From positions 1-64,000 of the forward strand of contig JAFWQF010000021.1 in assembly GCA_017509205.1 (NCBI GenBank): a DNA stretch of 64,000 nt. The letters run 5' to 3'. Below the pieces are notes generated by a model. That model was not told where the DNA came from and searched no databases. It saw nothing but the letters and a program-made list of their open reading frames with translations. Origin of the DNA: Clostridiales bacterium. Its GTDB lineage: Bacteria > Bacillota > Clostridia > Saccharofermentanales > Saccharofermentanaceae. Positions within the stretch are counted from its first letter, which is position 1; the number at the start of each line of letters is the position of its first letter. Positions 20,510-58,807 of this stretch are shown in pieces. The position numbers were made by a program, and so were the translations under genes.

Positions 20510-22993
20510 TTATTTTGCTACGATGTTGGCTATCCTGCCCTTAACGTAGATGAACTTCATTATGGATCTTCCTGCAAGAGCGCCTTCCAGTCTGCCGTCT
20601 GCCTTTACGATGGCTTCAACTGCATCCTGATCTGCTTCTGCTGGGATGTTGACCTTGAACTGGACCTTACCGTTGATCTGAACGGCGATCTCAATCTCAT
20701 CCTTTACAAGAGCACTCTCATCAACTTCAGGCCACTTCTGGTTGTAAACGGAATAGCCGTTGCCCAATACTTCGCACCAGAGTTCCTCTGTGAAGTGGGG
20801 AGCGAAAGGTGCAAGGAGGAGAACGAGCTTCTCTGTTGCGTATCTCTTGAACTCAGCCTTGCAGGAACTGTCCTGGCTGTACTTTGTGATGGCGTTCAGG
20901 AGCTCCATCATTCTCGCGATCGGAGTGTTGAACTGGAACTTCTCTATGTCTGCAGTGGAACTCTTGATGGCATAGTTGACTGCATAGTTGAGTTCCTTGT
21001 CGGCAGAAGTCATGTCAGATTTAGCGGGAACAGCTGATGTCTTGCACTCAGCACTCTCTGCGACACATGTCTCGATCCTTCTGAAGAACTTGACGATGGC
21101 CTGGAGACCGGAGTCTGACCAGGGACCGCCCTCGATGTAGGCGAATCCGAATCCGAGGTATGTTCTGAATACGTCTGAACCGTACTTGCTGATATAGTCG
21201 TCAGGTGCAACGGTGTTGCCTCTGGACTTGCTCATCTTTTGGCCGTCAGGTCCGAGGATCGTACCCTGGTGAACGAGGCTTGTGAAGGGCTCGTCAAAAT
21301 CGAGCATGCCCATGTCACGCATTGCCTTTGTGAAGAACCTTGCATAGAGGAGGTGCATGCATGCGTGCTCAGCGCCGCCGACATACTTATCGACAGGGCA
21401 GAACTTGTTGATCTTATCCTTGGAGAACATCTCCTTGTCGTTCCTGTTGTCCGGATATCTGAACTGATACCAGGAGGAGTCAACGAAGGTGTCCATAGTA
21501 TCAGGATCACGTCTTGCGTCAGCACCGCACTTGGGGCACTTGCAGTTCATGAATGATTCGCACTTTGCGAGCGGGCTCTCACCGTCGGGTGTGAACTCAA
21601 CGTCGTAGGGGAGAAGAACTGGAAGTTCCTCTTCGGGTACGGGAACAACGCCGCAGGAAGGGCAGTGGATCATCGGGATCGGAGTTCCCCAGTATCTCTG
21701 ACGGGAGATGAGCCAGTCACGGAGTCTGAAGTTGACTTTCCATTCGCCCATGCCGATCTCGGCAAGCTTAGCGACGATGGCCTTCTGCGCATCGTGCATC
21801 TCCATTCCGTCGAACTCGCCGGAGTTTGTAAGATAACCCTTTTTGTCGCAGTAAGGGAGATCTGAATCAACACCCTTTTCGGGCTGGATTACGCGGATGA
21901 TCTCAAGGCCGTACTTGTGAGCGAAATCAAAGTCTCTTTCGTCGTGTGAAGGAACAGCCATGACAACGCCTGTGCCGTATCCTGCGACAACATAATCTGC
22001 TGCCCAGATCGGAACCTTTCTGCCGTTCAGGGGATGGATCGCATAAGCGCCCGTGAACACACCGGTCTTCTCGCGTGTGGTGGACATACGGTCGATCTCG
22101 GTAACCTTTGCGGTTGCCTTGCGGTATTCCTCAACTGCGTCTCTGCACTCGTCAGTGGTGAGCTTTGCGCAGAGTTCTGACTCAGGTGCGATTACTACGT
22201 ATGTGATACCCATGAACGTATCGACTCTGGTGGTGAACACCTCGAGCTTCATGGGAGAACCGTCTTTGTTTGTAAGCTGCTTGCCGTCCTTTTCGACATA
22301 GAGGGCAACCTGTGCACCTTCAGATCTGCCGATCCAGTTCTTCTGGAGCTTCTTGGTCTTCTCGGGCCAGTCGAGCTTCGGAAGATCATCTAAGAGTTCC
22401 TGAGCATACTCGGTGATCTTGAAGAACCACTGGGTCATGTTCTTGCGGATGACTTCGGAATGGCATCTCTCGCACTCGCCGTCGACTACCTGCTCGTTTG
22501 CAAGAACGGTCTTGCATGAAGGGCACCAGTTGACGGGTGCGTTCTTACGGTAAGCAAGGCCTCTCTTGTAGAGTTCGATGAAGAACCACTGGTTCCATCT
22601 GTAGTAATCTGGCATGCATGTCTTGACTTCATAATCCCAGTCAACGGTGGTACCCATTGCCTGAAGCTGCTTTTCCATCGTGTCGATGTTCTTCAGAGTG
22701 GAATCCTTGGGGTGAATGCCGGTCTTGATGGCATAGTTCTCAGCGGGGAGTCCGAATGAGTCGAATCCCATGGGGTGGAAGAGGTTGAAGCCCTGCATGT
22801 GCTTGAACCTTGCCCAGGAGTCAGTAAGGGAATAGTTATACCAGTGACCAAGGTGTAGGTTGGCTCCGGAAGGATAAGAGAACATCTCAAGGCAATAAAG
22901 CTTTTTGCCTTCTGCGTCCGGATTGAACTTGTAAAGTCCGCTCTCGGCCCATTTTGCCTGCCATTTTTTGTCGGTCTCGATTGAATAACTCAT
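20510..22993 (-). CDS. leuS: Leucyl-tRNA synthetase
   Basis: This class Ia synthetase of 827 residues attaches leucine to tRNA-Leu. The HIGH signature appears as [13 protein letters not shown] near the N-terminus and KMSKS as [10 protein letters not shown]. Zinc-binding cysteines are visible in [15 protein letters not shown] and in CPSCG..CKCPKCG. The editing domain (CP1) lies at about 220-420 ([13 protein letters not shown], then SHDERDF). The tRNA-binding end closes with [22 protein letters not shown] stands ahead of the ATG. Unlike aspS, the short leader has no T-box, so leucine starvation must be sensed another way. Confidence 0.98.
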
Positions 22994-23073: not shown

Positions 23074-23086
23074 TTTGATATTCAAA
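23074..23086. promoter_or_regulatory. Palindromic operator TTTGATATTCAAA upstream of mreB
   Basis: This is a 5-3-5 palindrome (TTTGA, TAT, TCAAA). The identical 13-mer occurs at 49107-49119 before the FabT-like gene. It lies three bases upstream of the mreB -35 box and upstream of the divergent leuS promoter. It resembles the published FabT half-site arrangement. Confidence 0.55.
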
Positions 23087-23089
23087 TAA

Positions 23090-23118
23090 TTGATTTTTGA
23101 AGAATGTGATGTAATAAT
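23090..23118 (+). promoter_or_regulatory. Putative mreB promoter
   Basis: TTGATT at 23090-23095 and AATAAT at 23113-23118 are 17 bases apart (or TAATAA at 16). The leader to mreB is about 60 bases. Confidence 0.55.
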
Positions 23119-23182: not shown

Positions 23183-24196
23183 ATGGCATTAGGCATGGAG
23201 ATTAGTGTCGATCTCGGCACCAGCAGCGTGTTGATATATATCAGAGGCAAAGGCATCGTCCTTAAAGAACCCTCTGTAGTCGCAGTTAACAGCAGAACAG
23301 GTAAAGTACTTGCAGTAGGTGAGTCCGCAAGCCTCATGCTCGGAAGGACTCCGGGAATCGTTGAAGCCATCAGGCCTCTGCGTGAAGGTGTCATTTCAGA
23401 CTTCCGCGCAACAGAGGTAATGCTCAAGGCTTTCATCGGACGTGTCTGCACGGGACTCCGCGCAACATATTTCAAGCCTACGATCGTTGTATGCGTTCCT
23501 TCGGTAATCACACCGGTTGAGCAGCAGGCAGTTGAGAATGCCTGCCGTCATGCCGGCGCAAAGGACGTTTTCCTCATCAGAGAGCCTATCGCTGCTGCGA
23601 TCGGTGCAGGTATCGACATCACAAAAGCATGCGGTTCAATGGTAGTTGATATCGGCGGCGGTACGACGGATATCTCCGTCATCTCACTCTGCGAACCTGT
23701 TGTTGATGCATCCCTCAAGGTTGCAGGCGACAAGTTCGATGAGGCCATCATCAAGCACGTAAGAAAGAGACATAACATCCTTATCGGTGAGAAGACAGCC
23801 GAGAAGCTCAAGATCGAGATCGGATGCGCTTACCCGAGAGACGAGGAGCTTACATTAGACGTTCAGGGAAGAAACATCATCACGGGTCTTCCTTCAACTG
23901 TCACCGTTTCTTCAACCGAGATGCTCGAAGCACTCGAAGAACCGATCACCCAGATCTTCGAAGCAGTTCACAACGTTCTCGAGAGAACACCTCCAGAACT
24001 CATGGCTGATATCTCTCAGAGAGGTATCGTAATGACCGGCGGCGGTGCAATGCTCTACGGTCTTGACCACATGCTTTCCAACAGGATCGGAATCGATGTC
24101 TACCTTGCACAGGATCCGGTATCGTGCGTAGTTATCGGAACAGGTAAGGCTCTTGACATGATGGACAAGTTCGCAGCACTTTCAAGCGACGTCTGA
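23183..24196 (+). CDS. mreB: Rod shape-determining protein MreB/Mbl
   Basis: This bacterial actin of 337 residues polymerises under the membrane and directs lateral cell-wall synthesis. Nucleotide-binding motifs are clear: phosphate 1 in VDLGTSSVLIYI, phosphate 2 in VVDIGGGTTDISVI, and the adenosine motif in IVMTGGGAMLYGLD. GAGGTGA precedes the ATG. It is a single-gene unit; mreC and mreD do not follow, so it could be the Mbl or MreBH paralogue rather than MreB itself. A strong terminator closes it. Confidence 0.94.
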   Translation: MALGMEISVDLGTSSVLIYIRGKGIVLKEPSVVAVNSRTGKVLAVGESASLMLGRTPGIVEAIRPLREGVISDFRATEVMLKAFIGRVCTGLRATYFKPTIVVCVPSVITPVEQQAVENACRHAGAKDVFLIREPIAAAIGAGIDITKACGSMVVDIGGGTTDISVISLCEPVVDASLKVAGDKFDEAIIKHVRKRHNILIGEKTAEKLKIEIGCAYPRDEELTLDVQGRNIITGLPSTVTVSSTEMLEALEEPITQIFEAVHNVLERTPPELMADISQRGIVMTGGGAMLYGLDHMLSNRIGIDVYLAQDPVSCVVIGTGKALDMMDKFAALSSDV

Positions 24197-49106: not shown

Positions 49107-49119
49107 TTTGATATTCAAA
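49107..49119. promoter_or_regulatory. Palindromic operator TTTGATATTCAAA before the FabT-like gene
   Basis: This 5-3-5 palindrome lies one base upstream of the -35 box of the downstream promoter. It is identical to the site at 23074-23086 and resembles the FabT operator known in streptococci and Lactococcus (ending TTTGA-N3-TCAAA). Self-control of the regulator is likely. Confidence 0.65.
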
Positions 49120-49120
49120 T

Positions 49121-49149
49121 TTGTGGTAAAAGGACTGATAGTGTAAAAT
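49121..49149 (+). promoter_or_regulatory. Promoter of the FabT-like regulator-acpP-lipid kinase operon
   Basis: TTGTGG (49121-49126) and TAAAAT (49144-49149) are 17 bases apart. Confidence 0.55.
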
Positions 49150-49181
49150 ACTATAAATGCTTTTTACGGGGGAATTTGAAG

Positions 49182-49697
49182 TTGAAGAGCGAAGAAGAAA
49201 TAATGTCTGAAGCGCTGGTGCGTATCTTTGAGAACGTTGTTCTTACTGAGGAAAAATCACTTCAGGCAGGGTATTTTTCAGATCTTTCCATAGCGGAGAT
49301 GCATACTCTCACTGCAATTGGTCCCTATGAATCAAGAACGATGACAAAGACTGCCGAAGACCTCGGCATTACCACGGGTACTCTTACTGTTGCGATCGAC
49401 AGGCTCGTCAAGAAGGGCTATGTCATCAGACAGCGCGACACAAATGACAAGCGTGTCGTAAGGATCAGCCTCACAAGGAACGGCAAGCTTGCCTGCAGAA
49501 TGAACAGCAAGTTCCACAGGGTGCTTGCCAAGCACATCCTGAGCGGATACAACGAAGAAGACAGAAAACATCTTTTGGATCTTGTCAATGAGGTCGACTT
49601 ATATGTTGCCCAGCAGCTCAGAAGATATGACGGAGCGGTAAATGTCAGAAAGACGGCCATGGAGGTCGCGAAAGACAGCAAAAAGGAGAATGAGTGA
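49182..49697 (+). CDS. MarR-family regulator, FabT-like
   Basis: The 171-residue winged-helix protein has the MarR fold: SIAEMHTLTAIG, recognition helix around TTGTLTVAIDRLVKKGY, and wing QRDTNDKRVVRISLT. It is followed by acyl carrier protein, the context of FabT-type regulators that repress fatty-acid synthesis genes. A FabT-like palindrome lies upstream. The start is a TTG at 49182, with GGGGGA eight bases before it; ATG 49203 is possible but has a poor ribosome site. No other FAS II genes follow, so its regulon must lie elsewhere. Confidence 0.82.
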   Translation: MKSEEEIMSEALVRIFENVVLTEEKSLQAGYFSDLSIAEMHTLTAIGPYESRTMTKTAEDLGITTGTLTVAIDRLVKKGYVIRQRDTNDKRVVRISLTRNGKLACRMNSKFHRVLAKHILSGYNEEDRKHLLDLVNEVDLYVAQQLRRYDGAVNVRKTAMEVAKDSKKENE

Positions 49698-49699
49698 TC

Positions 49700-49957
49700 A
49701 TGGGAGATTCCAGACGCGAAGAGATCTATAACGAAGTCTTACGTATTCTGAGTTCTGACCTTGAGGTTTCCGTGGACGACATCGAGAGGGACATGGATCT
49801 CAACACCGAACTTCCTTTTGATTCTCTCCAGCTTTACGAGTTCGTCATCGATCTTGAAGAGGCATACAACATCAAGCTTCCGGATGAGATGCTCGATCAG
49901 ATGAAGACAGTGGATGACATTGTCAGTCTCATAATGCAGCTCACGGAAGGAAAATGA
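49700..49957 (+). CDS. acpP: Acyl carrier protein
   Basis: This acidic protein of about 85 residues carries the phosphopantetheine serine in PFDSLQLYEF (Ser42), with helix II (EFVIDLEEAYNI) after it. It delivers acyl chains in fatty acid or related synthesis. DSLQ replaces the usual DSLD/DSLS of AcpP, so it may be a specialised carrier. AAGGAG lies upstream; GTG 49694 is an alternative start overlapping the regulator stop. The lipid kinase gene overlaps its stop (ATGA). Confidence 0.9.
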   Translation: MGDSRREEIYNEVLRILSSDLEVSVDDIERDMDLNTELPFDSLQLYEFVIDLEEAYNIKLPDEMLDQMKTVDDIVSLIMQLTEGK

Positions 49958-50934
49958 AAAGTTTCAGCAGAAAAGTCTTCATAGTCAACAGCAGAGCGGA
50001 TTCGCGCGGAATGGAAACATTCAAGGCAGCGACCGAAGCTTTTGCTGAAAGCCTGAAAGGCTGCGAGATCCGTTACACCGAATATGCCGGTCATGCCACC
50101 GATATCGCAAGAGAGACATTGTCACAGGATGACGGCGATACTCTCGTTGTTGCATGCGGCGGTGACGGCACGGTCCATGAAGTCGCAAACGTGCTGGCAG
50201 GAAGCAGTCTGCCGATGGCGATAATCCCTCTGGGGACCGGCAACGATTTTGCAAGGTCCGTCATGGATGAGCATCACAGAGGTGACTGTGAATACTGCGT
50301 CAGCGAGATCACCAAGAATGATTATGTCGTGAGGGCCATCGATCTCATAAAGGTTGAGTCTTTTGACGCCCAGGGTAATCTGATTCCTGAAAGCTCCGCA
50401 TGGTGCAACAACGTGGCTTCTATCGGCCTCGACACCGAAGTACAGCTCAGGGCGAAATCCCGCGTGTTAAGACATCCGAAGTCGGCCTTCGTCAGGAAGA
50501 CTTCTTATCCGATCTCGGCGGCCGGAGCACTTTTCGGAAACCGCAATTTCGATTTCAAATACGAATGCACCAGAGGCTCTGACGTTCCGGAGTTTGCGAA
50601 AAAGCCCGGATTTACGCTCATAAGCATCTGCAACGGTTCATATTACGGCAGCGGATTCTGTCCCGCTCCCAAAGCGGATGTAAGGGACGGGCTTCTCGAT
50701 GTGTGCGCGATCGGCCAGGTGAGCCTGCCCAGGGCGGTCTATCTGATTACAAAATATAAGAACGGACTCCACGAGGGAAAGAAGTACGTTGACTGCTTCA
50801 GGACTACCGAAATAACCGTGGAGGCTACCGGGTACCGTGATCTTAACGGCAATTACGACGGTGAGGACTTCTCCGGACGCAAGGTGAAGTTCACCTGTGT
50901 AAAAGGTGCATTGAATCTTGCATTTTACGATTGA
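49954..50934 (+). CDS. Diacylglycerol kinase family lipid kinase
   Basis: The 326-residue protein belongs to the DagK/YegS group of cytosolic lipid kinases. The nucleotide-binding GGDGTVHEVANVL motif (about 69-81) and PLGTGNDFARSV are clear. The C-terminal half is the beta-rich lipid-binding domain. It probably phosphorylates diacylglycerol or undecaprenol-type lipids. It is coupled to the acyl carrier protein by an ATGA overlap, with GGAAGG upstream. Confidence 0.9.
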   Translation: MKSFSRKVFIVNSRADSRGMETFKAATEAFAESLKGCEIRYTEYAGHATDIARETLSQDDGDTLVVACGGDGTVHEVANVLAGSSLPMAIIPLGTGNDFARSVMDEHHRGDCEYCVSEITKNDYVVRAIDLIKVESFDAQGNLIPESSAWCNNVASIGLDTEVQLRAKSRVLRHPKSAFVRKTSYPISAAGALFGNRNFDFKYECTRGSDVPEFAKKPGFTLISICNGSYYGSGFCPAPKADVRDGLLDVCAIGQVSLPRAVYLITKYKNGLHEGKKYVDCFRTTEITVEATGYRDLNGNYDGEDFSGRKVKFTCVKGALNLAFYD

Positions 50935-58105: not shown

Positions 58106-58124
58106 CTTTTGAGTTTCAAAATGA

Positions 58125-58183: not shown

Positions 58184-58807
58184 ATGACTATAGAAGAAAA
58201 GAATTATCTGTTCGATCAGGCGCTTGCGCTTTCAGGCATTCTTGAGCAGGAGAGCGTTGAACTTCTCGGCATGATGGAGAACATCGATGACAGAGTGGCT
58301 ATCTCCAAAGCCATTTCCAAGCTTGAGGCTGAAGGCGATGACATTTTCCATGCAACTACGGCTGAACTCCAGAAGATGGAACTTGATGAGGAAACAAGAC
58401 TCAAGATCTTCCACATGATCCGTCACATCGAAGATGTCACAGACATGATCGACGAGCTCAGCAAGACGATCGTAAGATACAATACGCGCACCGTTACCAA
58501 CGGCTTCAAGGCTAGTGTTAACAGCATTAACGGCGCCATAAAGAAGCTTGTCGTTCTCATCAACGCAATGCGTGAATATGAGCCCGAGATGAAGGAACAT
58601 TTCACAAAGACAGTCAATTCATTTGATGCTTTCAAGGTTGACTACGAGAAGATGTATGACGTGCTCATTTTCGACCTTTTCTCGAAGCCTCACGATGTCG
58701 TTGACATCATAAGATGCAAAGCAGTTTACGATGCGATCAGAGACATTTTCGAGGCATTTGAGGTCAGTGCCGACGATGCTTACAAGTTTATCGTATCAAG
58801 AGGCTGA
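58184..58807 (+). CDS. DUF47/PhoU-like protein
   Basis: The 207-residue all-helical protein belongs to the DUF47 family (PhoU-related). Conserved acidic clusters are visible in AEGDDIFHATTAELQ and IEDVTDMIDELSKTIVR. Members are usually encoded with a Pit-type phosphate transporter and regulate it; no transporter is adjacent here. GGTGG precedes the ATG. A perfect hairpin terminator follows. Confidence 0.88.
   Translation: MTIEEKNYLFDQALALSGILEQESVELLGMMENIDDRVAISKAISKLEAEGDDIFHATTAELQKMELDEETRLKIFHMIRHIEDVTDMIDELSKTIVRYNTRTVTNGFKASVNSINGAIKKLVVLINAMREYEPEMKEHFTKTVNSFDAFKVDYEKMYDVLIFDLFSKPHDVVDIIRCKAVYDAIRDIFEAFEVSADDAYKFIVSRG

Follow-up and report, generated by a model that had tools for sequence, protein, structure and literature searches.

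In a rumen Saccharofermentans-type species with a 2.38-Mb genome, the same short palindrome stands in the promoters of mreB and of a gene for a FabT-like regulator. Comparison among related genomes leads us to a reading that we consider quite probable, namely that these palindromes are FabT operators, that mreB joined the lipid regulon in one rumen clade, and that acyl-ACP-dependent repression is the most likely mode of control. The window analyzed here was a stretch of 64,000 nucleotides. Within it, TTTGATATTCAAA occurred exactly twice, at the two promoters where an earlier note on this DNA had placed it, with 0.01 copies expected in window shuffles, and the gaps to the −35 boxes, 1 nt at fabT and 3 nt at mreB, were as that note had claimed. 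The features of the window are collected in Table 1.

Table 1. Features of the window around the FabT-type palindromes
Feature	Position	Strand	Details	Basis
Divergent gene read as leuS (leucyl-tRNA synthetase)	20510–22993	−		ORF, own sequence reading
Putative FabT-type operator in mreB promoter	23074–23086	+	Centred at about −44 (mreB) or about −58 (leuS)	
mreB promoter	23090–23117	+	TTGATT 23090–23095, N16, TAATAA 23112–23117	Consensus reading
mreB	23183–24196	+		NCBIfam MreB, 456 bits
Putative FabT-type operator before fabT	49107–49119	+	Centre about −43	Comparison
fabT promoter	49121–49149	+	TTGTGG 49121–49126, N17, TAAAAT 49144–49149	Consensus reading
FabT-like MarR-family regulator	49176–49697	+		Pfam MarR, NCBIfam FabT, PDB 6jbx
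Acyl carrier protein (ACP)	49694–49957	+	FDSL phosphopantetheine site; linked to fabT	
YegS/diacylglycerol-kinase-type lipid kinase	49954–50934	+	Third gene of the fabT unit	
Third copy TTTGAGTTTCAAA, weaker candidate operator	58108–58120	+		4/9 close species

The regulator matched the Pfam MarR family (1.4e-12), and its best NCBIfam match, far ahead of the next, was FabT (3.9e-38, 130.8 bits). As the FabT equivalog model has a curated cut-off of 200 bits, which this score does not reach, the protein is named FabT-like here and not a FabT equivalog. Its best solved relative was 6jbx, a fatty acid biosynthesis regulator (2.7e-25, the next being 1e-9), which we take to be FabT of S. pneumoniae. 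The product is thus a MarR winged-helix protein with FabT as its nearest characterized relative, and the genome contains one close FabT-like protein of the MarR type. The order fabT–acp–lipid kinase was kept in most of 57 relatives, with the ACP motif downstream of fabT at 49 of the 57 loci and the lipid kinase motif at 48; these loci came from named genomes, many of them rumen and gut genomes with the label Saccharofermentans. The linked ACP is a candidate carrier of the corepressor. A FabT-like gene with 35% identity and an exact TTTGACAGTCAAA upstream was also observed in a bin labelled Spirochaetota, reflecting either transfer or mis-binning.

The fabH-fabK operon is the classical target of FabT. 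In the host genome, an operator was found at its TTGACA-N17-TATACT promoter (C81:71944); it starts on the final base of the −10 box, which is a classical repressor position. Every one of the 18 readable genomes of the genus had the exact motif at fabH; a few relatives (G009, G018, G034), in which the fabH start could not be placed, are not counted here. The motif was also exact in two genomes of another family having FabT, and two genomes of a third family had it with a single mismatch; in family f2, which has no close FabT relative, the motif was absent at both readable fabH genes. In six congeners fabH had two operators, of which one lay at the −10 box and the other preceded the −35 box by 4 nt. 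A gap of 4 nt to the −35 box was likewise seen at the membrane-protein gene, close to the gaps at mreB and fabT. The published FabT palindrome ANTTTGACTGTNAAATT (PMC8406281) fits TTTGA-N3-TCAAA. The comparison shows that the motif belongs to the fab operon and tracks FabT.

The genome-wide distribution of the motif, obtained by pattern search with the reversed palindrome as control, was not random. TTTGA-N3-TCAAA occurred 8 times in the host genome against 3 for the control (2.38 Mb, 125 contigs), and none of the 8 copies lay within a confident gene. They precede mreB, the fabT-like gene, a DUF47-like gene, a membrane protein gene, a lactate dehydrogenase gene, an alpha/beta hydrolase gene (at a contig edge, identified from the start of its reading frame), and the fabH-fabK operon, with one near a phosphoketolase gene. 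Totals were 73 versus 29 in nine close genomes and 206 versus 46 in 24 genomes of the genus. The fab operon was marked throughout the genus, and the mreB copy was kept wherever the promoter could be read in the close species. The 29 control sites of the nine genomes yielded one widely conserved cluster: the control palindrome AAACTNNNAGTTT (C55, about position 1892) appeared in 9/9 close genomes as TTTAGTTATATTAAACTTTNAGTTTAGAACGG, just before the gene of an XRE-cupin regulator, and is probably that regulator's own operator.

The mreB gene is the sole MreB gene of the genome, the next match being partial, 27% identical and of the Hsp70/actin type, and it is probably monocistronic because a terminator-like hairpin, read from the sequence, follows it. 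Nine close species, including the host, were compared; mreB was readable in eight of them and was not found in the ninth genome. Since the MreB genes were collected by protein search, the sample of promoters was independent of the motif. The site lay at the same place in all eight promoters, and none of its ten arm columns varied, while all three core columns did (TAT, CAG, TGG, TAG). Third codon positions of mreB differed by 26%–37% between every pair of these species. By a rough star-tree estimate, ten invariant columns would arise by chance with a probability of about 2e-7 at the mreB third-position rate and of 3e-4 at the rate of the same leuS–mreB spacer. The promoter around the site was likewise well conserved, so the constancy of the site may be due in part to promoter elements. 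Among 72 mreB promoters of the genus, the exact site was present in the 8 close species and absent in the 64 other congeners, most of which have a recognizable TTGATT −35 box without the operator. From the invariant arms, the drifting core, and the 64 congeners lacking the exact site, the mreB site is therefore best read as a putative FabT operator that arose a single time in one lineage and has since been maintained by selection. The exact match between the two window copies, on which the earlier note had drawn, is real but partly coincidental, since the N3 core can change freely at mreB. The note's proposal that one regulator would act on both promoters is strongly supported by the comparison; the shared control of lipid synthesis and rod-shape growth that it envisaged would hold in the lineage with the mreB site and is not general to the genus.

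The candidate regulon was not limited to fatty-acid genes, since conserved sites were also found at mreB, ldh, the membrane protein, and the alpha/beta hydrolase. Over the nine close genomes, the counts were 9/9 for ldh, 9/9 for the membrane-protein position, 8/8 for mreB, and, by a cluster table, 8/9 for fabH, with the fabH site of G017 found separately too; the alpha/beta hydrolase site was present in 7/9, the host included. The operator before fabT itself was exact and in the same place in only 5/9 close species, so that regulon membership is fluid; many congeners have sites at fabT in shifted positions. A looser form of the pattern gave the third window copy, absent from the earlier note, which directly follows a terminator hairpin and precedes the DUF47/PhoU-like gene at 58184; in the close species that have it, it keeps its place with a drifting core.

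The L-lactate dehydrogenase site (C24:4636) was kept in all nine close species and in the more distant congener G004, which suggests an influence of lipid state on fermentation end products as well. The sites of G004 and of a second distant congener, G016, included fabH and the alpha/beta hydrolase, and G016 had one at a CDP-lipid synthase gene; mreB was not among the motif targets found in these two genomes. Both also carried a FabT-type site before a gene resembling a biotin-dependent carboxyltransferase (named by eye). The targets in the two genomes are again largely lipid genes. A CarS-like/CDP-lipid synthase gene lay behind a FabT-type site in G040, G047, and G016, and in the remaining close species the equivalent operator–promoter is followed by a large membrane protein, as though a gene behind the operator had been lost or inserted.

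In the mechanism that we propose, FabT would hold a genus-wide lipid regulon comprising the fabH-fabK operon, the fabT–acp–lipid kinase unit, and other genes. The mreB gene would have entered this regulon in the ancestor of a single rumen clade, through the rise of an operator directly upstream of its −35 box. When long-chain acyl-ACP accumulates, a FabT dimer with acyl-ACP as corepressor would bind the mreB site near −44 and occlude the −35 region, lowering mreB transcription together with that of the fab genes; when acyl-ACP is scarce, mreB and the fab genes would both be released. We infer that acyl-ACP, by analogy with known FabT proteins, would be the signal, that this FabT would be the binding protein, and that the effect would be repression and not activation.

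Repression is the more likely sign at mreB, as the position next to the −35 box fits it, but the same position is compatible with activation. FabT–acyl-ACP bound near −44 could contact RNA polymerase in a class II-like manner, a good lipid supply then raising elongation capacity, and the imperfect mreB boxes would suit an activated promoter. Activation of cell-wall and lipid genes has also been reported for another MarR protein, RmaH of L. lactis (PMC13277315). We nevertheless consider activation a real but unlikely alternative, given that the −35-adjacent geometry recurs in fab operons that also carry a −10 operator, where repression is expected, and that similar mreB boxes in congeners without the operator indicate that no activator is needed there. 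The palindrome might instead serve the divergent leuS, not or not only mreB. Its distance of 80 nt to the leuS start codon was fixed in nearly all eight species, and the distance on the mreB side varied by 1–3 nt. Against this, the centre of the site would lie about 16 nt beyond the leuS −35 box, a position unseen at other targets, whereas its geometry at mreB matches other FabT promoters, and control of envelope growth makes better sense for a lipid regulator. This makes leuS an improbable explanation of the site, although the gene may be a second target.

It is more doubtful still that another regulator, such as a Crp/FNR- or Rex-type redox factor, reads the palindrome. The motif resembles FNR half sites, and its presence at ldh in every close species would suit such a factor; yet the site is 13 bp long with the N3 spacer known for FabT, not TTGAT-N4-ATCAA, the motif goes with FabT at fabH and is also found at fabT itself, and a close FabT-like candidate is encoded in the genome. 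Chance occurrence of a common AT-rich palindrome before mreB is the least credible reading, with hardly any weight left to it. By the control counts, about a third to half of the genome-wide copies could be accidental (8 vs. 3; 73 vs. 29 in nine genomes), but the mreB site stayed constant in eight of eight species around a drifting core despite the divergence at third positions, and the only widely conserved cluster of the reversed control is itself a likely operator of another regulator. For the mreB copy, chance is already refuted unless the conservation stems wholly from overlapping promoter elements. A simple chance origin of the palindrome was likewise rejected, as was a short coincidence of two copies.

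The closest known system is the FabT regulon of Streptococcus, Lactococcus, and Enterococcus, with which the present one shares a MarR-type regulator (about 40% identity over 120 aa, judged by eye from the alignment with 6jbx), the palindrome TTTGA-N3-TNAAA, sites at fabT and the fab operon, and the link to lipid synthesis. It differs in that the fabT unit contains ACP and lipid kinase genes and lies apart from the fab operon, and in that mreB, ldh, a membrane protein, and an alpha/beta hydrolase are included. In E. faecalis, all putative FabT sites were in fab-related genes, and acyl-ACP enhances DNA binding by FabT (PMC9083066). The FapR regulon of Bacillus is similar in placing fatty acid and phospholipid genes under a single lipid-sensing repressor, but FapR belongs to another protein family and its ligand is malonyl-CoA. 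Transcriptional control of an MreB-family gene is represented by WalR on mreBH in B. subtilis, which, going by a title cited in PMC4996995, is a two-component system for wall stress with the paralogue mreBH as its target, in contrast to a lipid sensor that acts on mreB itself. We set aside RmaH of L. lactis as an equivalent; its motif is different and FabT is not mentioned. In the open-access papers searched, mreB was not found as a FabT target, and FabT and mreB appeared together only in incidental co-mentions. While FabT is already known, mreB as its target is new as far as the literature found.

What keeps membrane growth in step with wall growth in bacteria has yet to be settled, and a 2023 study described the mechanisms coordinating membrane and peptidoglycan synthesis as unclear (PMC10128001). 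A conserved putative FabT operator at mreB offers a concrete, testable wire between the two, and the comparison of promoters suggests that one lipid-sensing switch probably acts over membrane building and cell elongation in this lineage. We lean toward the further view that FabT, as a lipid sensor, sets MreB levels directly, a single acyl-ACP signal tuning membrane supply and wall elongation as the result of a gain in one lineage. With the site present in eight close species and lacking in 64 congeners, the connection can be studied as an evolutionary gain. If true, a FabT–MreB link acquired in one Saccharofermentans lineage would provide natural pairs of species with and without it.
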